Part shown: positions 2,082 through 15,062 of the stretch, one piece after another
Layout of the letters: every line of letters begins with the position of its first letter
Numbering within the stretch: position 1 is the stretch's first letter
DNA from: an uncultured Bacteroidota bacterium
GTDB taxonomy: Bacteria > Bacteroidota > Bacteroidia > B-17B0 > Aurantibacillaceae
Length of the DNA stretch: 37,740 nucleotides
NCBI GenBank assembly: GCA_937868545.1
Contig: CALMMX010000056.1
Span: 1 to 37,740 of the forward strand
Direction of reading: 5' to 3'
Notes under the pieces: model-generated
What the model was told of the DNA's origin: nothing
Databases searched by the model: none
The model's input: the letters and a program-made list of their open reading frames with translations, nothing else
Made by a program: the position numbers and the translations under genes

Positions 2082-5000
2082 ATGGAAACTACACCATATC
2101 AATCAACACACAAAATTCGAATTGTAACAGCAGCAGCATTATTTGATGGACACGATGCCGCCATCAACATCATGCGTCGTATCATTCAATCAAGTGGAGC
2201 AGAAGTAATTCATTTAGGGCATGATAGAAGTGCACAAGAAGTTGTAAACTGTGCTATTCAAGAAGATGCAAACGCTATTGCAGTAACTAGCTACCAAGGC
2301 GGACATGTAGAATACTTTAAATACATGTACGATTTATTAAAAGAAAAGGGCTGTGAGCACATTAAATTATTTGGCGGTGGTGGCGGTGTAATTCTCCCAA
2401 CAGAAATTGAAGAATTACATAATTATGGTATTGCACGTATCTATTCTCCAGATGATGGACGTTCTTTAGGTTTACAAGGAATGATTAATGATTTACTTCG
2501 TCAATGTGATTATGCTACTGGTACTAATATTAAAAATGATGTGGCTAAAATTGCAGAGAGAGATTATAAATCAATTGCCCGTATTATTTCTGCTGCCGAA
2601 AATTTTAATGATGAAAATATTGGTTTATTAAATGAATTAAAAGCAAAAGCAGAAAAATCAGCAACACCTGTGTTAGGTATTACGGGTACAGGCGGAGCTG
2701 GAAAATCGAGTTTAGTAGATGAATTGGTTCGTCGTTTTTTAATTGATTTTAAAGACAAACAAATCGCTATCATTTCTGTTGACCCATCTAAACGTAAAAC
2801 AGGGGGTGCTTTATTAGGAGATCGTATTCGTATGAATGCAATTAAGAACGACCGCGTGTATATGCGTTCATTAGCTACTCGTCAAAGTAACTTAGCATTA
2901 AGTAAATACGTGCAAGATGCAGTTAACATTTGTAAAGCTGCTAATTTCGATTTAATCATTTTAGAAACTTCTGGTATTGGACAATCTGATACAGAAATTA
3001 TTGAACACTCTAACATGAGCTTGTACGTAATGACTCCAGAATACGGAGCAGCTACACAATTAGAGAAAATTGATATGTTAGATTTTGCTGACATTATTGC
3101 TTTAAACAAATTTGACAAACGTGGGGCATTAGATGCGATACGTGATGTAAAAAAACAATACAAACGAAACCACAACTTATGGGAAATTGCAGATGAAGAT
3201 ATTCCAGTATTTGGAACAATTGCTTCTCAATTTAATGACCCAGGTATGAATCGCTTATACAAAGCGGTAATGAATAAAATGGTTGAGAAAACAAGCAATA
3301 CAGCTTTAGCTTCTCAATTTCATATTACAGAAGAGATGAGTGAAAAAATTTACATTATTCCTCCTTCAAAAACACGTTATTTATCTGAGATTTCTGAAAA
3401 CAACCGTAATTACGATAAGAGAGCTAACGCACAAGCTGAAGTTGCTCAAAAATTATATGGCATTCAAAAAACCATTGAAACGATTACGGAATCTAAAATG
3501 GAGGACAAAGATCGTTTGATTAAAGGGTTACAAGAAGCATTTGAAAAAACAAAACTAGATTTAGATCCTCATCATTTATTGGTAATAGAAGGATGGGAAG
3601 CAAAAAAGAAATTATATAGTAGTGAGTTTTATGAATTTAAAGTGCGTGATAAAGTATTGAAAATTGAAACGCATTACGAATCTTTATCTCATTCAAAAAT
3701 CCCAAAAATTTCGTCACCAAAATATACATCGTGGGGAGATATTTTAAAATGGACCTTGCAAGAAAATTTCCCTGGAGATTTTCCTTACACTGCTGGTATC
3801 TATCCATTTAAACGCGAAGGTGAAGATCCAACTCGTATGTTTGCTGGAGAAGGTGGGCCAGAGAGAACTAACAAGCGTTTTCATTATGTAAGTAAAGGAT
3901 TACCGGCAGCACGTTTAAGTACAGCTTTTGATAGCGTGACGTTATATGGTAATGATCCTGATTACCGTCCAGATATTTATGGTAAAATTGGTAATAGCGG
4001 TGTGAGTATTTGTTGTTTAGATGATGCTAAGAAATTATATTCAGGCTTCAATTTAGCAGATCCTAAAACATCTGTGTCAATGACTATTAATGGCCCAGCA
4101 CCAACTATGGCGGCGTTTTTTATGAATGCAGCCATTGACCAACAGTGCGAAATTTACATTAAGGCAAATGGTTTAGAAAAAGAAGTAGAAGAAAAAATTG
4201 CAGCCATTTATAAAGCAAAAGGGACTGTTCGTCCAACCTACCAAGGCGAATTGCCAGAAGGCAATAATGGCCTAGGTTTAATGTTATTAGGCGTTACAGG
4301 AGACCAAGTATTACCTAAAGATGTTTACGAAAAAATTAAAGCAACCACTTTATCACAAGTACGAGGTACAGTACAAGCAGATATTTTAAAAGAAGACCAA
4401 GCACAAAACACATGTATTTTTAGTACAGAGTTTAGTTTACGTGTAATGGGAGATGTGCAACAATACTTCATCGATCAAAAAGTACGTAACTTTTATTCAG
4501 TTTCTATTTCTGGCTATCACATTGCTGAAGCAGGCGCTAATCCTATCTCCCAGCTTGCCTTCACTTTAGCAAATGGATTTACGTTTGTAGAATATTACTT
4601 AAGCCGTGGTATGCACATTGATGATTTTGCGCCAAACTTATCTTTCTTCTTTAGTAATGGCATTGATCCTGAGTACAGTGTTATAGGACGTGTAAGTCGC
4701 CGTATTTGGGCTAAAGCTATGAAATTGCGTTACGGTGGAAACGAACGTAGCCAAATGTTGAAATACCATATACAAACTTCTGGTCGTTCGTTACATGCGC
4801 AAGAAATTGATTTTAATGATATTCGTACAACGTTACAAGCCTTATATGCTATTTACGATAACTGTAATTCATTGCACACCAACGCATACGACGAAGCTAT
4901 AACAACACCAACAGAAGAATCGGTTCGTAGAGCAATGGCAATTCAATTAATTATTAATCGTGAATTAGGTTTAGCAAAAAATGAAAATCCATTACAAGGA

Positions 5001-5462
5001 TCTTTCATTATTGAAGAATTAACAGATTTAGTTGAAGAGGCAGTGTTAACTGAGTTCGACCGTATTTCTGAACGTGGTGGTGTATTAGGAGCAATGGAAA
5101 CCATGTATCAACGTGGACAAATACAAGAAGAAAGTTTATACTACGAAACATTAAAACATACGGGCGAATATCCAATTATTGGCGTAAATACTTTCTTATC
5201 AAGCAAAGGAAGTCCAACGGTGTTGCCACGTGAAGTAATTCGTTCTACAACCGAAGAAAAAGAATACCAAATTACTATGTTAGCTGAGTTGCATAAAACT
5301 CATGCTGATAAGCACAACGAAATGGTAAAACGCTTACAAAGCGCAGCAATTCATAACAAAAACATTTTTGCTGAATTAATGGATGCAGCTAAATTTATGA
5401 GTTTAGGTGAAGTAACAAAATGCTTATTTGAAGTTGGTGGGCAGTATAGAAGGAATATGTAA
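2082..5462 (+). CDS. icmF: Fused isobutyryl-CoA mutase (IcmF), B12-dependent
   Basis: A 1126-residue cytoplasmic enzyme that should interconvert isobutyryl-CoA and n-butyryl-CoA using adenosylcobalamin. Domain order is diagnostic: an N-terminal B12-binding domain (DGHD with the axial His at residue 24, then a GGGGG turn), a MeaB-like G-protein chaperone (P-loop GTGGAGKSS at 202-210, NKFD base-specificity motif at 342-345), and a C-terminal mutase barrel from about residue 560. Methylmalonyl-CoA mutase has a substrate-contacting Tyr and Arg. Here the aligned-looking positions read YPFKR (Phe 576) and QAQNT (Gln 775), as expected for the isobutyryl-CoA form. The length is normal for the fused family, and all three parts look intact. 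It is a stand-alone gene with a long leader and a 71-bp gap to the next gene. Confidence in the fused mutase is very high; substrate preference rests on my manual alignment. Confidence 0.96.
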
Positions 5463-5533: not shown

Positions 5534-6550
5534 ATGAAAAATATTATGAAAAAATTCCTTTATGTAATAATTGGCATTTGTTGCCTGTATTTAATCCTAT
5601 GTATATTTGGACCTTCAAAAGTTAAAGTTGAGCGTTCAATAGATATTAAAACCTCTTCTGTTGAAGATTTACAACATCATTTAGCTGATTTAAAATTCTT
5701 TCATGATAAATATAGTCCTTGGACTAGAAGAGACCCAAGCATGAAAACAACTTATACAGGTGTTTGTTGTGAACCAGGTAGTACTTACAGATGGGAAAGT
5801 GAAAAAGATAGCGTAGGAAAAGGAACTATGACATTTAATAAATTTACTAAAGATAGTGTTTTGCTTACTTTAAATTTTGACGGCATGGGCGATAATGATC
5901 TTTATTTTATTACTAAACCCAATAATAATGGAAACATTACTGTTACTTGGGGTGTAGTTTTTGATATTGGTTTTTTTGGACGTGCACCAATGTTATTTAT
6001 TAATATGGATAAAATTATTGGTACTGATTACCAAAATGGTTTAGCAAAATTAAAAACAGAAATTGAATCTATTGCTGCCGAGACGACCACAACGTATGAT
6101 ATAAAAGAACTTAATTGGGATGCAAAAACTTTTTATGGTGTAAAAGATAAATTATCACTTGATAAACTTGCTGCCTTTTTTGGTAACTCATATGGCAAAG
6201 TTGGGGCAGCACTAAGCAAAGCAAAAGCACAGCCAGTAGGAATGCCTAAGGCAATATACTTTACGTTTGATGAAAAAACAATGGTTACAGATGTGGCTGC
6301 AGTAATAGAAGTTGCTAATGGAACTAAGTTAGATGGTGTAGAGAAATTTGAAACGCCAGCAAGTAAGGTTTTGTTGGTTGAATATTTTGGAGCTTATGAT
6401 AAATCGGCAAACGCGCATTATGCAATGGACGCATACATAAAGGAAAAAGGCCTTACACAAAGTTTTGTAATTGAAGAATATGCAAACGATCCAATGGTAG
6501 AAAAAGACACTGCTAAATGGCAAACAAACATTTATTATTTGGTAAAATAA
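5534..6550 (+). CDS. Membrane-anchored SRPBCC / GyrI-like ligand-binding protein
   Basis: A 338-residue protein. One N-terminal hydrophobic segment (about 6-25, FLYVIIGICCLYLILCIFG) anchors or exports it. Residues about 30-175 look like a START/SRPBCC polyketide-cyclase-type domain (YSPWTRRDPSMKTTYTG, TYRWES, GKGTMTF). Residues about 190-338 look like a GyrI/AraC effector-binding domain, seen in the YFTFDE, VLLVEYFGAYDK and YANDP patches and the WQTNIYYLV end. Both folds bind small hydrophobic or cationic ligands, so a sensor or carrier role outside the cytoplasm is plausible but inferred. An alternative start is the second Met at 5546. It stands alone, and a hairpin 78 bp after its stop (6628-6661) may be its terminator. 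Confidence 0.82.
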   Translation: MKNIMKKFLYVIIGICCLYLILCIFGPSKVKVERSIDIKTSSVEDLQHHLADLKFFHDKYSPWTRRDPSMKTTYTGVCCEPGSTYRWESEKDSVGKGTMTFNKFTKDSVLLTLNFDGMGDNDLYFITKPNNNGNITVTWGVVFDIGFFGRAPMLFINMDKIIGTDYQNGLAKLKTEIESIAAETTTTYDIKELNWDAKTFYGVKDKLSLDKLAAFFGNSYGKVGAALSKAKAQPVGMPKAIYFTFDEKTMVTDVAAVIEVANGTKLDGVEKFETPASKVLLVEYFGAYDKSANAHYAMDAYIKEKGLTQSFVIEEYANDPMVEKDTAKWQTNIYYLVK

Positions 6551-6586: not shown

Positions 6587-8644
6587 TTGAACTCAAACTC
6601 TCACATTAGTACAAAATATTTTAAAACAAAACACTACCAATTATTTTTGGTAGTGTTTTTTAATATTATAGGTTGGAGTTTAAACGCACAAAACATAAAT
6701 TCTCTTCTTAAACAATACCAAGAAAAATCTTATGATGATAGCAGCAAATTAAACTTAGCCATAAAAATTAGTGATTACTATAAAACTAAAAATCCCGACT
6801 CTAGTTTTCTTTTTAATTTACAAGCTTATCATTTAGCAAATGCTAATAATTACAAAGAGCAAGAAATTAAATTGGGATTTAAACTATCTTATTATTATTT
6901 CAATTATGGTAACAATCAAAAAGCTTTAAACTATGCAATTAACAGTCTTAAATTAATTGAACAAACAAATGAAGTTAAAAACAGAATAAATATATACAAT
7001 CACATAGGGACTATTTATAGTTCTATGGAAAACCACACAAAATCCTATTATTATTTTTCAAAATTTTTAAACTTAGCTCGAAGCAATAAAGATACTACTT
7101 CAATTGTGGCTGGACTTAACAATACGGGAGCTACACTTACCTCACTTTACAATTATTCGGATGCGAAACAATATTTTATAGAAGCATTAACTATTGATTC
7201 AATCAGAAATGAAACAGAATATTTTGATTATTACTACAGTAACCTAGCTAATATTTGTTTTGAAAACAATGAAATAAATAATGCTGAATTATATTTTTTA
7301 AAAAGCAACCACTATAGCAAACTATTACAAGACACTAATAAAATTATTTTAAACTACATAGCCATCTCTGATTTTTATTTTGATTTACATAACAATGATT
7401 TAGGTTTAAAATATATAGATACAGCTTATACTTTTACGAAAATTAAAAGTGATGTTACTACTAAGATAGGGTTATACGAGCGCTTAGCAAATGCCTATAA
7501 AACAACTGGTGATTATACTAATGCCTATAACTTTCACATTAAACACACTTATTTAAAAGATAGTGTTTCTAATACAGAAAATCAGATTCGGCTAAACAAT
7601 ATAGCTAATGATTATACTATAGAACAAAAAGAATTTGAACTAAACAATAAAGCAAAAATTGAAAGTCAAAAACAAAGGTTAATAACTTGGTCAATTATAA
7701 TTATACTTTTAATTGTTGCTGCATTTACATTTTTATTATACAAACGCTTCAAATTAATAAGTAAACAAAAAATAGTTATAGAACAAAAAGAGCAAGAAAC
7801 ACAATTGCAAAATACTATAATTAAAAAACAAAAATTATTAGTCGAAGAAAAACATAAAGAGATTACTGATAGTATAAATTATGCCAAAAGAATTCAATTT
7901 GCTTTATTGCCAAACGAAAACACTTTGAAGAATCATTTCCAAAATCATTTTGTTTATTTCAATCCAAAGGATGTTGTTAGTGGAGATTTTTATGCACTTG
8001 CAAAGCTCAATGGCGCAAACAATCAAGAAAAGATTTTGCTTTGTGTAGCAGATAGCACAGGTCATGGTGTGCCAGGCTCTATTATGAGTATGCTAAATAT
8101 GAGTTGTTTAAATTCGGCCATTAATGCAGATAAACACACGCAACCTGCTGATATTTTAAACGCAACTCGAAGTAGGATTATTCATTACCTAGCTACAGAT
8201 GGAAGTGAAGATGGGGGCAAAGATGGTATGGATTGCAGTTTAATTAGCTTTGATTTTAATGAAAAAAAACTTATTTATTCGGCTGCAAATAATCCTATTT
8301 TAATAGTGAGGGCCTCAAAAGGAACTGAAAATCCTAGTTTAGAAAATTATCCTGCCGATAGAATGCCAGTTGGAAAACATCTTAAGGACAATATACCGTT
8401 TATTCAAAAAGAAATTGATTTAAATGAAGGTGATATGGTGTATATGTTTACGGACGGATATGCAGATCAATTTGGTGGTGAAAAAGGTAAAAAATTTAAA
8501 TACAAACAGCTTGAGGAATTACTTATTTCTATTTCTGATAAGCCAATGGACACACAAAAACAAATACTATCTCAAACTTTTGATAATTGGAAAGGTAATC
8601 TAGAACAAGTAGATGATGTTTGTTTAATTGGGGTAAGAATTTAA
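6587..8644 (+). CDS. TPR - transmembrane - SpoIIE/PP2C phosphatase
   Basis: A 685-residue signalling protein. It has a signal peptide (cleavage expected after SLNA, residue about 34), a TPR-rich sensor region (about 40-340) outside the cytoplasm, and one membrane helix (about 365-386, WSIIIILLIVAAFTFLLY). A coiled coil (about 390-430) ends in DSINYAKRIQ, and a cytoplasmic SpoIIE-type Ser/Thr phosphatase follows (about 450-685). Metal-ligand patches are all present: VVSGDFY, ADSTGHGVPG (Asp at about 489), DGMDCS and FTDGYADQFGG. In this family such phosphatases usually dephosphorylate anti-sigma-factor antagonists or other regulators; no partner is encoded nearby. No ATG exists upstream of the signal peptide, and an in-frame stop at 6578-6580 limits the options, so TTG at 6587 is the only sensible start. 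It is the first gene of a five-gene same-strand cluster. Confidence 0.88.
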   Translation: MNSNSHISTKYFKTKHYQLFLVVFFNIIGWSLNAQNINSLLKQYQEKSYDDSSKLNLAIKISDYYKTKNPDSSFLFNLQAYHLANANNYKEQEIKLGFKLSYYYFNYGNNQKALNYAINSLKLIEQTNEVKNRINIYNHIGTIYSSMENHTKSYYYFSKFLNLARSNKDTTSIVAGLNNTGATLTSLYNYSDAKQYFIEALTIDSIRNETEYFDYYYSNLANICFENNEINNAELYFLKSNHYSKLLQDTNKIILNYIAISDFYFDLHNNDLGLKYIDTAYTFTKIKSDVTTKIGLYERLANAYKTTGDYTNAYNFHIKHTYLKDSVSNTENQIRLNNIANDYTIEQKEFELNNKAKIESQKQRLITWSIIIILLIVAAFTFLLYKRFKLISKQKIVIEQKEQETQLQNTIIKKQKLLVEEKHKEITDSINYAKRIQFALLPNENTLKNHFQNHFVYFNPKDVVSGDFYALAKLNGANNQEKILLCVADSTGHGVPGSIMSMLNMSCLNSAINADKHTQPADILNATRSRIIHYLATDGSEDGGKDGMDCSLISFDFNEKKLIYSAANNPILIVRASKGTENPSLENYPADRMPVGKHLKDNIPFIQKEIDLNEGDMVYMFTDGYADQFGGEKGKKFKYKQLEELLISISDKPMDTQKQILSQTFDNWKGNLEQVDDVCLIGVRI
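6628..6661 (+). terminator. Terminator-like hairpin inside the next gene's signal-peptide codons
   Basis: AAAACACTACCAA (6628-6640) pairs perfectly with TTGGTAGTGTTTT (6647-6659) across a 6-nt loop. The descending arm runs into TTTTTT, the shape of an intrinsic terminator. It lies 78 bp downstream of the SRPBCC/GyrI stop, but also 41 bp inside the gene that starts at 6587, where it encodes the hydrophobic core of the signal peptide. It may therefore act as an attenuator of the downstream cluster rather than a plain terminator. Confidence 0.6.
8574..8644 (+). repeat. 71-bp 3'-end repeat, copy 1
   Basis: The last 71 bp of this phosphatase gene match 9645-9715, the end of the next gene, with a single difference (C at 8600, T at 9671). 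The encoded tail is TFDNWKGNLEQVDDVCLIGVRI less its ends. The identity stops exactly at the stop codons. Confidence 0.9.
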
Positions 8645-8656
8645 AAACTATTAATT

Positions 8657-9715
8657 ATGACAAAATTATTAAACCTCACAACTTTTCTTATCTTACTATT
8701 TTTACCAAGTTGTTTAGCTGCTCAGTTAGATTCAATAACAACTAATCCAAAATACACAAAACATTTAACTTGGCGCGATACTTTTTTTGGCAATGAAGAA
8801 ATGTATCAGGTTTGCTACCCTAAAGATCATCGCTCCATGTTTTATTCCATTATCGTGTTTTCTGTTACAACAGTTTTGTTTGGTATATTGATTATATACA
8901 TTAAAAATCATAGTGCTAAACGCCTAAAAGAAAAAAAAGAAATTATAGCTGAACAAAACAAAGATTTGATAGATAGTATAAATTATTCACAAAGAATACA
9001 ACAAGCTATTTTGCCAGACAATATTATTGAAAACGTTGTCCTAAAAACAGGATTTGTGTTATATAAACCAAAAAATATTGTAAGTGGTGACTTTTATTGG
9101 CTTCACAAGCGTGACGAATATTTATACTTTGCAGTGATAGACTGCACTGGACACGGCGTGCCTGGAGCATTACTAACTATGTTGGCACATAACGCAATTA
9201 ATAAAGCAGTCATTGAAAAAGAACTTATAGATCCAACTACAATTTTAGATAGCATGAATTTAGATGTAAAGACTGCTCTAAAACAAGATAAAGATAATCC
9301 GATACAAGACAGTATGGAGGTTGGGCTCGTTTGTTTAAATACAATTACAAACGAATTATTATTTGCTGGAGCTAATATATCACTTACATATATTCAAAAC
9401 AATGTAATGAAATTTGCTATTGCTGGTAAATGCTCTGTTGGCTCAGTGCAAGATAAAAGTGTTTCATTACCTAAAACTCATTCCATATCTCTAAATAAAG
9501 AAGATAGCTTTTATTTATATTCAGACGGTTTATCCGATCAATTTGGTGGACCAAAAGGTAAAAAATTCAAATACAAACAATTAGAAGATTTACTGTTGTC
9601 TAATTCACAAAAACCGCTTGATGTGCAAAAACAAATTATCAATAAAACTTTTGATAATTGGAAAGGTAATTTAGAACAAGTAGATGATGTTTGTTTAATT
9701 GGGGTAAGAATTTAA
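8657..9715 (+). CDS. Single-pass SpoIIE/PP2C phosphatase without sensor domain
   Basis: A 352-residue protein starting 12 bp after the previous stop. It has a signal peptide (hydrophobic LLNLTTFLILLFLPSCLAAQ; the LPSC is a poor lipobox), a short extracytoplasmic stub, a membrane helix (about 60-80), a short coiled coil ending DSINYSQRIQ (105-114), and the phosphatase domain to the end. The metal-binding patches VSGDFYW, DCTGHGVPG (Asp 162) and YSDGLSDQFGG are intact. The DGMD patch of its neighbours is altered to DSMEV, which may change activity. It lacks the TPR region of the flanking phosphatases, so it may work as a trimmed partner or take signals through another membrane protein. Its last 71 bp nearly duplicate the end of the preceding gene. 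Confidence 0.86.
   Translation: MTKLLNLTTFLILLFLPSCLAAQLDSITTNPKYTKHLTWRDTFFGNEEMYQVCYPKDHRSMFYSIIVFSVTTVLFGILIIYIKNHSAKRLKEKKEIIAEQNKDLIDSINYSQRIQQAILPDNIIENVVLKTGFVLYKPKNIVSGDFYWLHKRDEYLYFAVIDCTGHGVPGALLTMLAHNAINKAVIEKELIDPTTILDSMNLDVKTALKQDKDNPIQDSMEVGLVCLNTITNELLFAGANISLTYIQNNVMKFAIAGKCSVGSVQDKSVSLPKTHSISLNKEDSFYLYSDGLSDQFGGPKGKKFKYKQLEDLLLSNSQKPLDVQKQIINKTFDNWKGNLEQVDDVCLIGVRI
9645..9715 (+). repeat. 71-bp 3'-end repeat, copy 2
   Basis: Second copy of the 8574-8644 sequence with one substitution, ending at the stop codon. The corresponding tail of the third phosphatase (ending 15062) is similar in protein but clearly diverged in DNA. Confidence 0.9.
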
Positions 9716-9780
9716 TTTTATTTAAGTATGATTTAAAACTTAAATTTAATATATTTATTTACTGTTAAAAACAAGAAATA

Positions 9781-11070
9781 ATGTCTGAAATAAACAAAGA
9801 CCAACAAATTGAAAGCCTAGAAGAAAAAGTATCGCATTTGAGTAGAATGCTTGTTAAATCGTTTGGATATGCAGATCAAGATCCGGATACTTTTTTACAA
9901 AATGCAAGAAGAACTACCGAAGCAATTTGTCGTTTTATTTATACAAAAGAACTTGGTGAACCTAAAAGCAAAATGATGCTTAATGATTATGGAAGAGAAC
10001 TCTTACATAAAAAATTAATTCCAGATAAAATAGGAATACTCATTGGTACCATTCAAACCTATGGAAACTATGCCGCACATGCTCAAGATGATTTAAGTGA
10101 AGCAACCCGCGAATGGATTGCTCCATGCCAAACTGCTTTAGCAAGTTTAACAAATTGGTTTTTTTTAGAATACTTAAAAGGACATGTACCTAACGAATTG
10201 GTAACTCCAGTGCAGAGTTATGCCGAAAGCAGCACAACAAAAAATTATTCGCAAACAATTGCACCAACTTCTAAAAAATCTTCGTTACCCAAAATTGTAA
10301 TTGCAGTATTAGCTCTATTAATTGTTGCTTTTGGAACCTATTATTTTGCAACAAAAAACACTACTAATAATTTAGAAGTAAAAGATGAAGTGAAAACAGC
10401 TAACGAAGATGTAGTTAAACAACAAGAGAATATTGTTTCGGATTTAAACGCTGTAACACCAAATGCCAATGCTAAGCGCATTGCAGTTTTATATTTTGAT
10501 AGTGGTTCTGATAATGCTGAATTAACAAGGCTTAAAAAAGGATTAGCAGATATGATCATTTCCGATTTATCAAAAATAAATATGCTTAATGTAATTGAGC
10601 GAGCTCGTTTAGAAGAAATTTTAAAAGAACAAAAATTAAATAATTCAAAAGAATTTGACCCTGCTACAGCCAGTAAAGTTGGTAAACTATTAGGCGTGCA
10701 ATACATTTTAACCGGTTCGTTTTTTGATTTAATGGGTAGCATGAGAATGGATGCAAGGATTATAGATGTAGAAACAGGAAAAATAATAAAAAGTGAAGGG
10801 ATAGATGGCGCAACAAATACATTTTTTGATTTAGAAAAAAAATTGGTTGTAAAAATTGCCAGTGGATTAAATGTAGAATTAGCAGATGATAAAAACACAA
10901 AGGTTAATTCTTTAACTTACGAAACATCATTAATGTACTCTGACGCACTTGATAAAATGGACAAAGGAGAAAAAGACAAAGCTATAGATTTGCTAAAAAA
11001 AGTTTTACAAAAAAATCCTGATTTTACACCTGCACAAAATGCTCTTAATAAATTAACTGCTAAAGTATAA
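9781..11070 (+). CDS. DUF4145/HEPN-like - TM - CsgG-like - TPR protein
   Basis: A 429-residue protein with no signal peptide. Residues about 10-140 are helical and resemble the DUF4145/HEPN-like region (NARRTTEAICRFIY, LIPDKIGILIGTIQTYGN, then AAHAQDD with the conserved-looking N and H). This part should be cytoplasmic. A linker leads to one membrane helix at about 170-190. Residues about 234-365 resemble the CsgG/FlgO-type fold (RIAVLYFDSGSDN, LSKINMLNVIERARLEEIL, YILTGSFFDL, MDARIIDVETGKI), placed outside the inner membrane. The C-terminus has one TPR-like repeat (about 378-425). The next gene begins on the last base of this stop codon, so the two are probably co-translated. Such a domain fusion suggests transmembrane signalling, but no biochemical role can be assigned. 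Confidence 0.8.
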   Translation: MSEINKDQQIESLEEKVSHLSRMLVKSFGYADQDPDTFLQNARRTTEAICRFIYTKELGEPKSKMMLNDYGRELLHKKLIPDKIGILIGTIQTYGNYAAHAQDDLSEATREWIAPCQTALASLTNWFFLEYLKGHVPNELVTPVQSYAESSTTKNYSQTIAPTSKKSSLPKIVIAVLALLIVAFGTYYFATKNTTNNLEVKDEVKTANEDVVKQQENIVSDLNAVTPNANAKRIAVLYFDSGSDNAELTRLKKGLADMIISDLSKINMLNVIERARLEEILKEQKLNNSKEFDPATASKVGKLLGVQYILTGSFFDLMGSMRMDARIIDVETGKIIKSEGIDGATNTFFDLEKKLVVKIASGLNVELADDKNTKVNSLTYETSLMYSDALDKMDKGEKDKAIDLLKKVLQKNPDFTPAQNALNKLTAKV

Positions 11071-13154
11071 TGAAATCTAAACTGTTTTTAATTGTTTGTT
11101 TGCTTTGGGCTTTTATTTCTCAAGCTAAAACAATTGCTATTTCATATTTTGATAATTCTTCGGGAGACGCGAAGTACAACGCCTTGTCAAAGGGTATATC
11201 AGATATGCTAATAACAGATTTATCAAAAGTAAAAGGTGTAACTATTGTTGAAAGAGAAAAACTAGAAAAATTATTGCAAGAAATTAAATTAGGGCAGTCT
11301 AAATATTTCGACCAAACAACTGCGGTAAAACTAGGAAAAGGCTTAGGTGCTCAAAATATTTTAACCGGTTCGTTTTATATTTTAGATAATATTATTCGAT
11401 TAGATGCCCGTTTAATAGATGTACAAACAGGAGGTGTAATTTTTGCTGAACAAGTTAGTGGCAATAAAAACAATTTTTTTTCCTTACATCAGCAACTTGC
11501 CAATTTACTAGCTAAAAGTATAAACATACCATATAGTCCAGATTTAAGTGGGCTCTACAAAACTAATGAACAAGTGTCTATAAACGAAGTTGTAAATTAC
11601 TCAAATGCTATTGAACTTCAGGATGTAGGTATGGATCTTGAAGCAAAATTGTTACTTGAAAAAACGGTTAAATCAAATCCAAAATTTCAATTTGCAAAAT
11701 ATAAATTAGATGAGATTAAAGATTTAATTAAAAAAATTGAAGCTGAACGTGAAAAATTAATTTTAGAAGAACTCAAAAATACTATTAATACCATTGATGC
11801 ATCTAACGAAAAATTTGGAATGCAACTTACAAATGTTTGGACAACTTTGGTTTCTTCCTATAAATTTAATCAATTACTTTCTTTTAATAATTCAATTAGG
11901 AAAATGAAAGTTGATGATAAAAAGAAAATTTATGGAGAAGCATCGCCCTATACACTTGGAGAAATGCTTTCCTTTTATGATTGCTATGCATTTGATGCTT
12001 TAAAAAAATACGATTTAGTAATTGATGAAGGTAAATCATTTATTACTAAATATCCTACAAGCATGTATTTTCAAAGTGTAAAAATGTATCTAGAAAAAGC
12101 AATTAAAGAAATAGAATGGCGAGAAAATGCTAAAAAAGGATTAGATAATAAGCTTGCGGCAGAATCACTGGATGCATATGTTAATTACTTAAATAATTTA
12201 GAATGGAAAACGAACCTTCAATTTGTAAACACTAAAGAATATCAAAATTATGCTCAAATTTATAAAACTCAAGTTTTAAATACAAACAAAGAAACTATTG
12301 CTACATGGGATGAAAGTAGCAAGTTTAATGAGTTTACTAATTTTTTTGAAATTGCTCAAAACTATAACGACATTAAAATGATGGAGGATATCGTTTCAAC
12401 TTCCAAAAATTTATTTACCGATCCCGACGACCAAGAAAAAGTTTATTCATTAGAAAACAAACTAGAAGATTTTAAAACAAAAACCATTGAAAATGAAACT
12501 AAAATAAAAGAACTAGAATCTATAGCAAAAAAAGGTTCAAAGCATGAAATGGAAAATGTAATACATTGGTTATTTAGCAATGAACAATACAATAGACCTG
12601 ATTTGCTTTTAGAGATTTGTGATAAATACTTGAAAACAGGTAAACCTACCACCGAAAAAGAAGTTGATGAAAACCTTCATGCTTGGGATGGATTTATTAT
12701 GTATACTGGCAAATTAAAAAATATTGAAGACGCTAACAAAGCCTTTGAAAACTTAAAAAGCAAAGCCGATGATTATAAAGCTTTTCAAAAAGATTATGAT
12801 AAAAAAGTAAGAGAAATTAATAAAGATTTCAGAAGCCTGCAAAATGACTATACGAGTTATTTAAAGAATTTAAAACACAAAGATCCAATGTGCAATGTGC
12901 TAGAAAATTATGCATCAACGTACAACGAAAATCATCAATATATAGACGAAGTTTATACTCGGAAACAAATTTTAGAATTATATAAATTAGATGATGACAA
13001 AAAATCGTTACAACTATTTTTATTAATGATGAGTTATTACAACCTAGGAAACTTTGATAATGTAAGAAAAACGGCCACACTTTATAACGAATTATATCCA
13101 ACTGGTTCTTATGCTGAATCCGTAAAATCTATTGTTGATTTTTTACCAAAATAA
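11070..13154 (+). CDS. Exported CsgG-like protein with long helical C-terminus
   Basis: A 694-residue protein with a signal peptide (KLFLIVCLLWAFISQAK). A CsgG-like domain at about 20-160 closely parallels that of the preceding gene (IAISYFDNSSGD, DLSKVKGVTIVEREKLEKLL, NILTGSFYILDNIIRLDARLIDV less its ends). The remaining 530 residues are largely charged helices with TPR-like and coiled-coil character (for example 215-240 and 440-480). There is no lipobox, so it should be soluble in the periplasm or surface-associated rather than a classical CsgG pore lipoprotein. It shares the A of TAATG with the upstream stop, and the next gene starts 3 bp after its own stop. The likely role is partner of the upstream membrane protein; function unknown. 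Confidence 0.8.
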   Translation: MKSKLFLIVCLLWAFISQAKTIAISYFDNSSGDAKYNALSKGISDMLITDLSKVKGVTIVEREKLEKLLQEIKLGQSKYFDQTTAVKLGKGLGAQNILTGSFYILDNIIRLDARLIDVQTGGVIFAEQVSGNKNNFFSLHQQLANLLAKSINIPYSPDLSGLYKTNEQVSINEVVNYSNAIELQDVGMDLEAKLLLEKTVKSNPKFQFAKYKLDEIKDLIKKIEAEREKLILEELKNTINTIDASNEKFGMQLTNVWTTLVSSYKFNQLLSFNNSIRKMKVDDKKKIYGEASPYTLGEMLSFYDCYAFDALKKYDLVIDEGKSFITKYPTSMYFQSVKMYLEKAIKEIEWRENAKKGLDNKLAAESLDAYVNYLNNLEWKTNLQFVNTKEYQNYAQIYKTQVLNTNKETIATWDESSKFNEFTNFFEIAQNYNDIKMMEDIVSTSKNLFTDPDDQEKVYSLENKLEDFKTKTIENETKIKELESIAKKGSKHEMENVIHWLFSNEQYNRPDLLLEICDKYLKTGKPTTEKEVDENLHAWDGFIMYTGKLKNIEDANKAFENLKSKADDYKAFQKDYDKKVREINKDFRSLQNDYTSYLKNLKHKDPMCNVLENYASTYNENHQYIDEVYTRKQILELYKLDDDKKSLQLFLLMMSYYNLGNFDNVRKTATLYNELYPTGSYAESVKSIVDFLPK

Positions 13155-13157
13155 TTT

Positions 13158-15062
13158 ATGGACACTAGTACTCATAACCATTCATTAAACACACAAAACA
13201 GTAAAGCATGGAGCCTACGTTATTCTGATTCCTCAACAGCTCTAAAAATTGCCGAAGAAGTTAAAAACGCAGCTATTGAAACCAATTTGTTAGAATATCA
13301 TTTTGCGCAATTAACTATAGCGCAATTAATTTTTTGGAAATCAAGTTCAAGCGAACAATTTATTACAGTTTCAGAAGCATTACATTTTTTTACAACAGAA
13401 AATAATGCCTTAGGAATATCAAGGGCTAATTTAATAAGTGCATCCATGCACGACCAATTTGGACAATATGAAAAAGCAATGGCTCATGCTTTAAACGCTG
13501 TAAAAACAGGCGAATTAGCAGGGGATGAATTAAATAAATCTGATTGTTACACATTATTAGGCCAAGTTTATTCACGCATTAATGATTACCAAAAGGCAAT
13601 TTTAAATTTAGAAAAAGGGTTAGTAATTCGTAACCTATTAAATGATAATAAAGCTTCTGCATCTTCTTTAAATTTAATTGCAAGAAACTATGTATTAAGC
13701 AAAAAATATGAAGAAGCTTTTTCGTTCTATAATCAAAGCCTTGAACTGAGAGAGAAAACCAATGATGTTGATGGTATTCCTTGGACCTATTTGGGATTAG
13801 CCAGTTTGTTTCTAGAAAAAAAAGAGTTTCACAAATCATTAGAATATTATAAAAAAGCCGAAAGTTCTAATTTAAAAAGCGAAAAACGTTTTGAATTAGT
13901 TTGTTTAATAGGAATTAGTAAAGTTCTTCTGTTTTTAAGTGAGTATAATAACGCCATAGCTTGTTTAACCGAAGCACTGTTAATTGCAGAAACTCTTCAC
14001 ATAGTTTCACTAAAAAGCGAGGCGCATGAATTACTATCTGAATGTTATGAAAAAACTAATGATTTATCAAAATCGCTTTTTCATTTTAAACAATATAATT
14101 TACTTCGCCAAGAAATATTAAGTAATGATAAGGTAAACACATTAAAAAATCAGCAAATTGCTTTTTCGGTTGAACACGCTGAAAAGGAAGCAGAAATTAA
14201 TCGCCTTAAAAATGTAGAGTTAAAAAATGCATTTGACAAAATAGAACTACAACATCATGAACTAGAAGAAAAAAATAAAGAAATTACAGATAGTATCAAT
14301 TATGCCAAACGTATTCAGTCATCATACATGGCAAGCGAAAACGAATTAAGTAATTATTTATCGGACTATTTTGTAATTTTTAAACCCAAAGATATTGTTA
14401 GTGGTGATTTTTATTGGGCAAATTACCACAATGACAGTTTCTATTTATGCACGGCTGATAGCACGGGTCATGGTATTCCTGGTGCTTTTATGAGTTTGCT
14501 AAACATTTCACTTTTAAACGAGGCTTTGTTTAGCAGAAATTTTCATAATCCAAGCGACATATTAAATTTTGTTCGAAAAATACTCATTCAAGGATTAAAA
14601 TCTGATGACTGTGGTCAAGGAGGAAAAGATGGAATGGATTGTAGTTTAATTAGATTTGATTTTACTAAAAACATATTGAGCTATTCTGCAGCAAATAATC
14701 CAATATGGATTTTAAGGAAAACAAGTGTTGAAGAACTCAATACTCATGATTACGAATTAATAGAACTTAAGCCAGATAAAATGCCTGTTGGGAAACATGA
14801 TAAACAAGATGTATCTTTCTCTCAACATGAGTTTAAATTACAAAAAGGCGATAGAGTTTATACAATTACCGATGGATTTGCCGACCAATTTGGAGGACCA
14901 AATGGCAAAAAATTTATGAGTAAATACTTAAAAGAGTTACTCCAAAATAATACCCATTTACCAATGCTAGAGCAAAAACAAATTGTAGATACTGCTTTTG
15001 AAAAATGGAAAGGCAACTTAGAGCAAGTAGATGATGTGTGTGTAATTGGATTGGCGATTTAA
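13158..15062 (+). CDS. Cytosolic TPR - SpoIIE/PP2C phosphatase
   Basis: A 634-residue soluble protein: no signal peptide and no membrane helix. Residues about 15-325 are TPR repeats (for example GQVYSRINDYQKAILNLEKG and YLGLASLFLEKKEFHKSLEY). A coiled coil (about 335-380) ends in the shared DSINYAKRIQ, and the SpoIIE-type phosphatase fills about 390-634. Metal-ligand patches are present: VSGDFYW, ADSTGHGIPG (Asp 434), DGMDCS and ITDGFADQFGG. It starts 3 bp after the CsgG-like gene and is the last of the cluster. With the first phosphatase it forms an inside/outside pair of TPR-regulated phosphatases. The C-terminus WKGNLEQVDDVCVIG matches its two paralogues. Confidence 0.88.
   Translation: MDTSTHNHSLNTQNSKAWSLRYSDSSTALKIAEEVKNAAIETNLLEYHFAQLTIAQLIFWKSSSSEQFITVSEALHFFTTENNALGISRANLISASMHDQFGQYEKAMAHALNAVKTGELAGDELNKSDCYTLLGQVYSRINDYQKAILNLEKGLVIRNLLNDNKASASSLNLIARNYVLSKKYEEAFSFYNQSLELREKTNDVDGIPWTYLGLASLFLEKKEFHKSLEYYKKAESSNLKSEKRFELVCLIGISKVLLFLSEYNNAIACLTEALLIAETLHIVSLKSEAHELLSECYEKTNDLSKSLFHFKQYNLLRQEILSNDKVNTLKNQQIAFSVEHAEKEAEINRLKNVELKNAFDKIELQHHELEEKNKEITDSINYAKRIQSSYMASENELSNYLSDYFVIFKPKDIVSGDFYWANYHNDSFYLCTADSTGHGIPGAFMSLLNISLLNEALFSRNFHNPSDILNFVRKILIQGLKSDDCGQGGKDGMDCSLIRFDFTKNILSYSAANNPIWILRKTSVEELNTHDYELIELKPDKMPVGKHDKQDVSFSQHEFKLQKGDRVYTITDGFADQFGGPNGKKFMSKYLKELLQNNTHLPMLEQKQIVDTAFEKWKGNLEQVDDVCVIGLAI

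Follow-up and report, generated by a model that had tools for sequence, protein, structure and literature searches.

The locus treated here, a run of five genes in the DNA of an uncultured Bacteroidota bacterium, is best introduced through the systems it resembles. The SiaABC system of Pseudomonas aeruginosa comprises a PPM phosphatase (SiaA), a kinase (SiaB) and the protein SiaC, whose NTSS motif carries phospho-threonine 68 (PMC7647112). Phosphatases of the RsbU/SpoIIE type are under modular linker control: their input domains act on a helical linker, which in turn brings about dimerisation of the catalytic domains (PMC12143880). CadC is a transmembrane one-component regulator, and membrane-associated HEPN/DUF4145 proteins have also been described (PMC3710099). 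The window, i.e. the whole stretch of 37,740 nucleotides that was analysed (contig CALMMX010000056.1, here G000:C56), belongs to a metagenome-assembled genome (MAG) of 3.85 Mb in 384 contigs that is 83% complete (G000). It contains five open reading frames (ORFs), A to E, all on the plus strand and separated by 12, 65, -1 and 3 bp, which the original prediction read as one unit: two "CsgG-like" envelope proteins informing three SpoIIE phosphatases. Our analysis indicates that only C, D and E form a conserved cassette. With a probability of roughly one half, this cassette leads from the envelope to the cytoplasm: C and D would sense the envelope and control E, which would dephosphorylate SiaC. 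The genes and their parts are the following.

6587-8644, plus strand: A, outside tetratricopeptide repeats (TPR), transmembrane (TM) helix and SiaA-type phosphatase; a local addition outside the conserved cassette.
8657-9715, plus strand: B, a short membrane phosphatase of the SiaA type; a local addition.
9781-11070, plus strand: C, putative CadC-like membrane receptor with the order HEPN (DUF4145), TM helix, TolB-N-like domain and short TPR tail; Pfam DUF4145/CsgG/LpoB.
9781-10212, plus strand: cytoplasmic HEPN domain of C, its best conserved region; the motif reads YGNYAAH, with G95 in place of R.
10294-10350, plus strand: TM helix of C, residues 172-190, from hydropathy in the window and in four orthologues.
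10465-10875, plus strand: periplasmic TolB-N/LpoB/CsgG-like domain of C, matched by Pfam CsgG and about 42% identical to its counterpart in D.
11070-13154, plus strand: D, exported soluble protein made of a signal peptide, a TolB-N-like domain and a TPR-like helical solenoid of about 500 residues.
13158-14324, plus strand: input half of E (whole gene 13158-15062), consisting of cytoplasmic TPR and a linker; this half is the cassette's ancestral one.
14349-15062, plus strand: output half of E, SiaA-type PPM phosphatase, in the window genome a replacement derived from a paralogue.

The genes, spacings and topologies originally described were borne out by the ORF coordinates, Pfam and hydropathy, including the pairing of a membrane-spanning C with an exported D. 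Pfam assigned SpoIIE to A, B and E and CsgG to C and D, and DUF4145 matched C with 23.5 bits, barely above the cut-off of 23.1. By hydropathy, A consists of an outside TPR part, a TM helix and the phosphatase (its own N-terminal hydrophobic stretch stays under a simple hydropathy threshold), B of a signal peptide, a short outside part, a TM helix and the phosphatase, and C of a cytoplasmic N-terminal half, a single TM helix and a periplasmic C-terminal half. D has a signal peptide lacking a lipobox cysteine, and E, having no TM helices, is cytoplasmic.

To delimit the unit, C orthologues from eleven loci of public genomes were collected and their neighbourhoods compared. Every contig that was long enough shows the order C, D, E; G001 has the cassette in two parts, on separate contigs. 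Neither A, nor B, nor any similar SpoIIE gene lies upstream of C in any relative compared, and the five-gene arrangement is private to the window genome. Within the genus C is present in 4 of 20 genomes. The 1-nt overlap of C and D is common to the window and the loci L016, L017 and L021, and the genes flanking C-D-E vary by lineage, with no constant structural neighbour. A promoter-like element, TAnnTTTG, stands at position -25 or -26 of C in 9 of 11 relatives (expected by chance in about 2-7% each), thus in these C starts its own transcript; the element is missing in the window. Taken together, the neighbourhoods and the promoter element show C-D-E as an operon that is free-standing elsewhere and lies behind two foreign phosphatase genes in the window. 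C-D-E is therefore a conserved three-gene cassette, and A and B are local, lineage-specific neighbours. The original prediction had named scattering of the five genes in relatives as the result that would speak against it; in the gene-neighbourhood survey A and B drop out and C-D-E persists.

It is improbable that all five genes nevertheless act as one functional unit with three phosphatases of differing topology. The tight packing on one strand and the loss of C's usual promoter element in the window would suit such a unit, but A and B are absent from the locus in every relative, and the best match of A among the four cassette genomes reaches only 41%. With 38 SpoIIE domains in the window genome, and SpoIIE genes often standing in tandem in the genus, three SpoIIE genes among five are unremarkable, and A and B are ordinary neighbours.

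Across the phylum, a profile search with C in 395 genomes gave a match to the HEPN part in the window genome only; the other matches covered the TolB-like/TPR part, apart from one marginal match in the linker region (G061). The neighbourhoods of 20 TolB-like/TPR matches contained no cassette resembling C-D-E, and a plasmid search with C returned partial matches over the periplasmic half only, e.g. to cyclase-type proteins. Elsewhere in the phylum the TolB-like/TPR unit is preceded by protein kinase domains in L114 and by a cyclase domain in L115, thus swapping of the output domain has precedent in architectures of the C type. In G294 a SpoIIE-like gene lies just upstream of five genes encoding a kinase followed by a TolB-like part (L113:1537-16616), possibly a parallel link between a phosphatase and TolB-like sensors.

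The label "CsgG-like" for C and D turned out to be misleading. The Pfam CsgG matches are confined to positions 8-98 of the 210 of the profile, and a complete CsgG domain with pore-forming transmembrane hairpins was not found. In the model of D (predicted local distance difference test score, pLDDT, 80.7) a short sheet leads directly into the helical solenoid, without the hairpins of the curli pore, and the first domain matches the N-terminal domain of TolB (Z 12.9), FlgT (12.1), PelC (10.0), LpoB (9.5) and, with Z 11.0 over 186 residues, the periplasmic domain of CadC; the remainder is modelled as a TPR-like solenoid. The lipoprotein anchor of CsgG is also lacking, D having no conserved lipobox cysteine and C being held by its TM helix. 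Secretion of the curli type through a CsgG pore was ruled out by the partial profile match, the model of D and the TolB/CadC matches. C's own TolB-like domain cannot be judged from the weak model of that protein and was assigned by sequence homology to D. Because the model of D matches TolB-N and CadC domains, and C has this domain in common with D, C would follow the plan of CadC, with the HEPN domain replacing the DNA-binding domain as output.

Since TolB-N-like domains are found in the assembly proteins PelC, LpoB and FlgT, C and D could instead be an envelope-assembly or structural pair, with E a co-transcribed regulator or a chance companion and no signal passing from C to E. In other classes of the phylum, too, TolB-N-like domains occur in tandem lipoprotein pairs beside large proteins and without SpoIIE. 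We regard this explanation as unlikely: D lacks a lipid anchor, no structural neighbour accompanies C-D-E constantly, and the most constrained part of C is its cytoplasmic HEPN domain, which would be unexpected for a protein that functions solely through its periplasmic part. Invariant positions make up 72% of the HEPN domain, 58% of the TolB-like domain, 22% of the tail and 1% of the linker and TM region.

The HEPN fold of the N-terminal part of C was confirmed at the level of the predicted structure, which was modelled from 11 sequences. With residues 5-138, HEPN structures occupied nearly all top ranks (best Z 12.9, root-mean-square deviation 2.8 over 122 residues), which together with the DUF4145 match just over its cut-off supports the HEPN-like domain that had been predicted. 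The ribonuclease (RNase) motif Rx4-6H was not found: the sequences read GNY(A/G)(A/S)H, either GNYAAH or GNYGSH, with G in place of R in 11 of 11. In G003 a related membrane HEPN protein (L020:8550-9668) has kept the R, the corresponding stretch of its alignment being WRNLSAH. The domain in C has thus lost the RNase motif and appears to be catalytically dead. Accordingly it is very improbable that C is a membrane HEPN RNase under the control of a stimulus, an activity proposed for other HEPN proteins of the membrane (PMC3710099), and that the phosphatase is secondary, even if the HEPN fold, the existence of membrane DUF4145 proteins and a weak similarity to the N-terminal end of type I restriction endonucleases fit such a role; besides the substituted R, no relative compared showed any defence context around C. 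The G003 gene with the intact motif (L020:8550-9671) lies about 570 bp upstream of a gene for a site-specific recombinase-like protein and may itself belong to a defence or mobile element.

The phosphatases point to a SiaC-type switch. For the phosphatase domains of E and B the sole sequence match in the PDB was SiaA (6k4e), and in the alignments with it the aspartate motifs of the metal site, DxxGHG, DGxxDQ and DD, are kept. NCBIfam SiaA was the best model for A (172 bits), B (196) and E (146); these scores stay below the cut-off of 700 for full-length equivalogs, the N-terminal halves being different. By these matches A, B and E are SiaA-type rather than RsbU/SpoIIE phosphatases. Among 41 genomes, all 36 that have SiaC-family proteins gave strong matches to the E-type phosphatase domain, and the five lacking SiaC, which come from five families, had no E-type phosphatase except for one marginal match (8e-4) in G025 (Fisher 1.3e-6, relatedness ignored). 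SiaC has a SiaB-family kinase (164.5 bits vs. a cut-off of 85) as its neighbour in four members of the genus as well as in the distant G038, and SiaC aligns with P. aeruginosa SiaC across the NTSS phosphosite motif. The SiaA-type matches and the co-occurrence with SiaC suggest that E feeds a SiaB-SiaC switch by dephosphorylating a SiaC-family phosphoprotein, and A and B probably feed the same switch. The window genome has 13 SiaC-family genes, several of them next to SiaB-like or SpoIIE genes, compared with 1-6 in most relatives.

A conserved locus (L164:575-5791, also L162, L163 and L165) encodes a SiaA-type phosphatase followed by a SiaB-family kinase and SiaC. In L164 the phosphatase carries a propeller/Y_Y_Y sensor, and in the genus a small exported protein follows the phosphatase. 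This locus is probably the core partner switch of the genus.

As had been expected, the genes for the target lie outside the window: on other contigs the window genome has SiaB-SiaC pairs and also a single RsbW-like kinase and a single STAS protein. The latter two allow another explanation, classical anti-sigma partner switching, in which E and related phosphatases would have this conserved STAS protein, together with the RsbW-like kinase, as their target. Of 20 genomes of the genus, 19 have one RsbW-like kinase (L149:4209-4619, with a YbeY-like gene next to it) and 18 have one STAS orthologue (L150:2220-2564, behind a Fur-like regulator), and the two genomes lacking both, G028 and G034, also lack any SpoIIE. 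The phosphatase type, however, does not follow RsbW/STAS: G025, G037 and G040 have kept both, with only 1-3 strongly Pfam-like SpoIIE proteins, yet lack SiaC and are essentially devoid of E-type phosphatases. As SiaA is also E's sole PDB match, we consider this target rather improbable. The SiaC co-occurrence and the NCBIfam SiaA matches also led us to abandon, for A, B and E, the idea that all SpoIIE proteins converge on the single RsbW/STAS pair.

The two halves of E have different histories. The TPR-plus-linker half of the window E is 63% identical to E of L016 and L017, as is usual among the orthologues themselves. The phosphatase half is only 44% identical to the orthologues, which in L016, L017, L019 and L021 share 72-73% with each other. 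In a tree of 68 phosphatase domains the window E groups with a domain of G000:C75 (support 100/99), in a clade that also holds A, apart from the clade of the E orthologues (98/96). The break point lies near the conserved KNKEITDSINYAKRIQ linker. Judged from these comparisons, the window E is a chimera, in which the ancestral input half was retained and the catalytic half replaced by that of a paralogue. Such a half-swap fits a modular design with the cassette specificity in the TPR half, and can be looked upon as a natural domain-swap experiment.

We propose the following mechanism for the C-D-E cassette. C would be a single-pass, CadC-like receptor with a periplasmic TolB-N-like domain and TPR tail, a TM helix and a dead cytoplasmic HEPN domain. 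D would be its exported soluble partner; the two probably assemble via their TolB-N-like domains and read some state of the envelope. The HEPN domain would be the output module: it would bind protein, probably form dimers, and control E through E's TPR/linker half. E, as a SiaA-type PPM phosphatase, would dephosphorylate a SiaC-family phosphoprotein that is phosphorylated by SiaB-family kinases. The signal would thus pass from the envelope to C-D, through the HEPN domain to the TPR/linker half and the phosphatase of E, and on to the shared SiaC partner switch. HEPN domains often dimerise, and HEPN-driven dimerisation of E is a reasonable guess by analogy. Gene linkage, domain identities, loss of the RNase motif, phosphatase type with SiaC co-occurrence and the domain swap in the window E were computed; from these we infer the assembly of C with D, the contact from C to E, the substrate and every activity. 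The step from C to E draws on the conserved linkage and on the cassette-specific input half that E has retained, that from E to SiaC on sequence and co-occurrence. In this form the original idea that the envelope pair informs the phosphatases survives for E, through conserved linkage, and falls for A and B, which are unlinked in relatives. The more specific proposal, that a CadC-like receptor, aided by a soluble co-receptor in the periplasm, signals through a dead HEPN domain, and that this domain controls a phosphatase of a many-to-one SiaC switch by binding directly to it, is more tentative.

Several points weigh against the proposed mechanism. The model of C is poor beyond the HEPN part (mean pLDDT 49.8), and contact of C or D with E is suggested by a single kind of evidence, genomic linkage. 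The 41 genomes are related MAGs, thus the co-occurrence is not fully independent, and the 13 SiaC genes of the window genome are 13 candidate substrates for E. In the window, moreover, C-D-E is without the promoter element usual for it, and a terminator-like hairpin lies in A, which leaves the local transcript uncertain.

This hairpin and a second local feature are the following.

6628-6659, plus strand: terminator-like hairpin in the 5' end of ORF A, 13 bp followed by a T-run, folding z -5.4.
8585-8644, plus strand: final 60 nt of A, which agree with the final 60 nt of B (9656-9715) at 59 of 60 positions.

The hairpin had been overlooked in the original prediction; its stem is perfect, it lies within the region of ORF A that is predicted to encode the signal peptide, and it may either terminate the upstream gene or act as an attenuator. 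No in-frame ATG was found near the start of A, and a sigma-70 promoter scan stayed at chance level, its consensus being ill-suited to this phylum. It is therefore uncertain whether A-B-C-D-E form a single transcript in the window. The near-identity of the 3' ends of A and B, which have otherwise diverged, is a sign of recent gene conversion or duplication. Upstream of A the window encodes a fused B12-binding/MeaB GTPase/methylmalonyl-CoA mutase protein of IcmF-like architecture (2082-5462) and a membrane-anchored polyketide-cyclase-like domain fused to a GyrI-like domain (5534-6550).

The C-D-E cassette combines known parts in an apparently undescribed way, joining SiaA-type partner switching with a CadC-like, HEPN-bearing receptor; the library searched yielded no literature joining SpoIIE with CsgG, on Bacteroidetes partner switching, or on the cassette's parts together. 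If the proposed mechanism is true, it would give HEPN, a superfamily best known for RNases and toxins, a signalling role other than that of a nuclease, and would show how a periplasmic receptor communicates with a soluble phosphatase. The layout in these Bacteroidota, with tens of SiaA-type phosphatases carrying varied inputs and very few SiaC targets (34 E-type phosphatases vs. one SiaC in G007), would also make signal integration by phosphatase number testable.

It is instructive to compare the cassette with the known systems. With SiaABC (PMC7647112) it shares the SiaA-type PPM phosphatase, the SiaB-family kinase and SiaC with its NTSS motif; it differs in the number of phosphatases, which reaches tens in each genome, in their inputs, which are of the TPR or propeller kind in place of the SiaA sensor, and in that E has no membrane part and is accompanied by the C-D pair. 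Like CadC (PDB 3ly7/3ly9), C spans the membrane with one TM helix and has, in the periplasm, a TolB-N-like fold with helices after it, but HEPN stands in place of the cytoplasmic winged-helix DNA-binding domain, D is a separate soluble partner and a phosphatase is encoded in the operon. The predicted cytoplasmic HEPN domain tethered to one TM helix recalls the membrane-associated HEPN/DUF4145 proteins (PMC3710099), from which C is set apart by the missing RNase motif, the N-terminal position of HEPN, the C-terminal periplasmic TolB-like/TPR part and the link to a phosphatase. Finally, a PPM domain driven by exchangeable inputs via a helical linker is common to E and the RsbU/SpoIIE-type phosphatases (PMC12143880, PMC11418112), whereas the sequence type of E and its co-occurrence indicate SiaC, and not RsbV/SpoIIAA, as the probable substrate.

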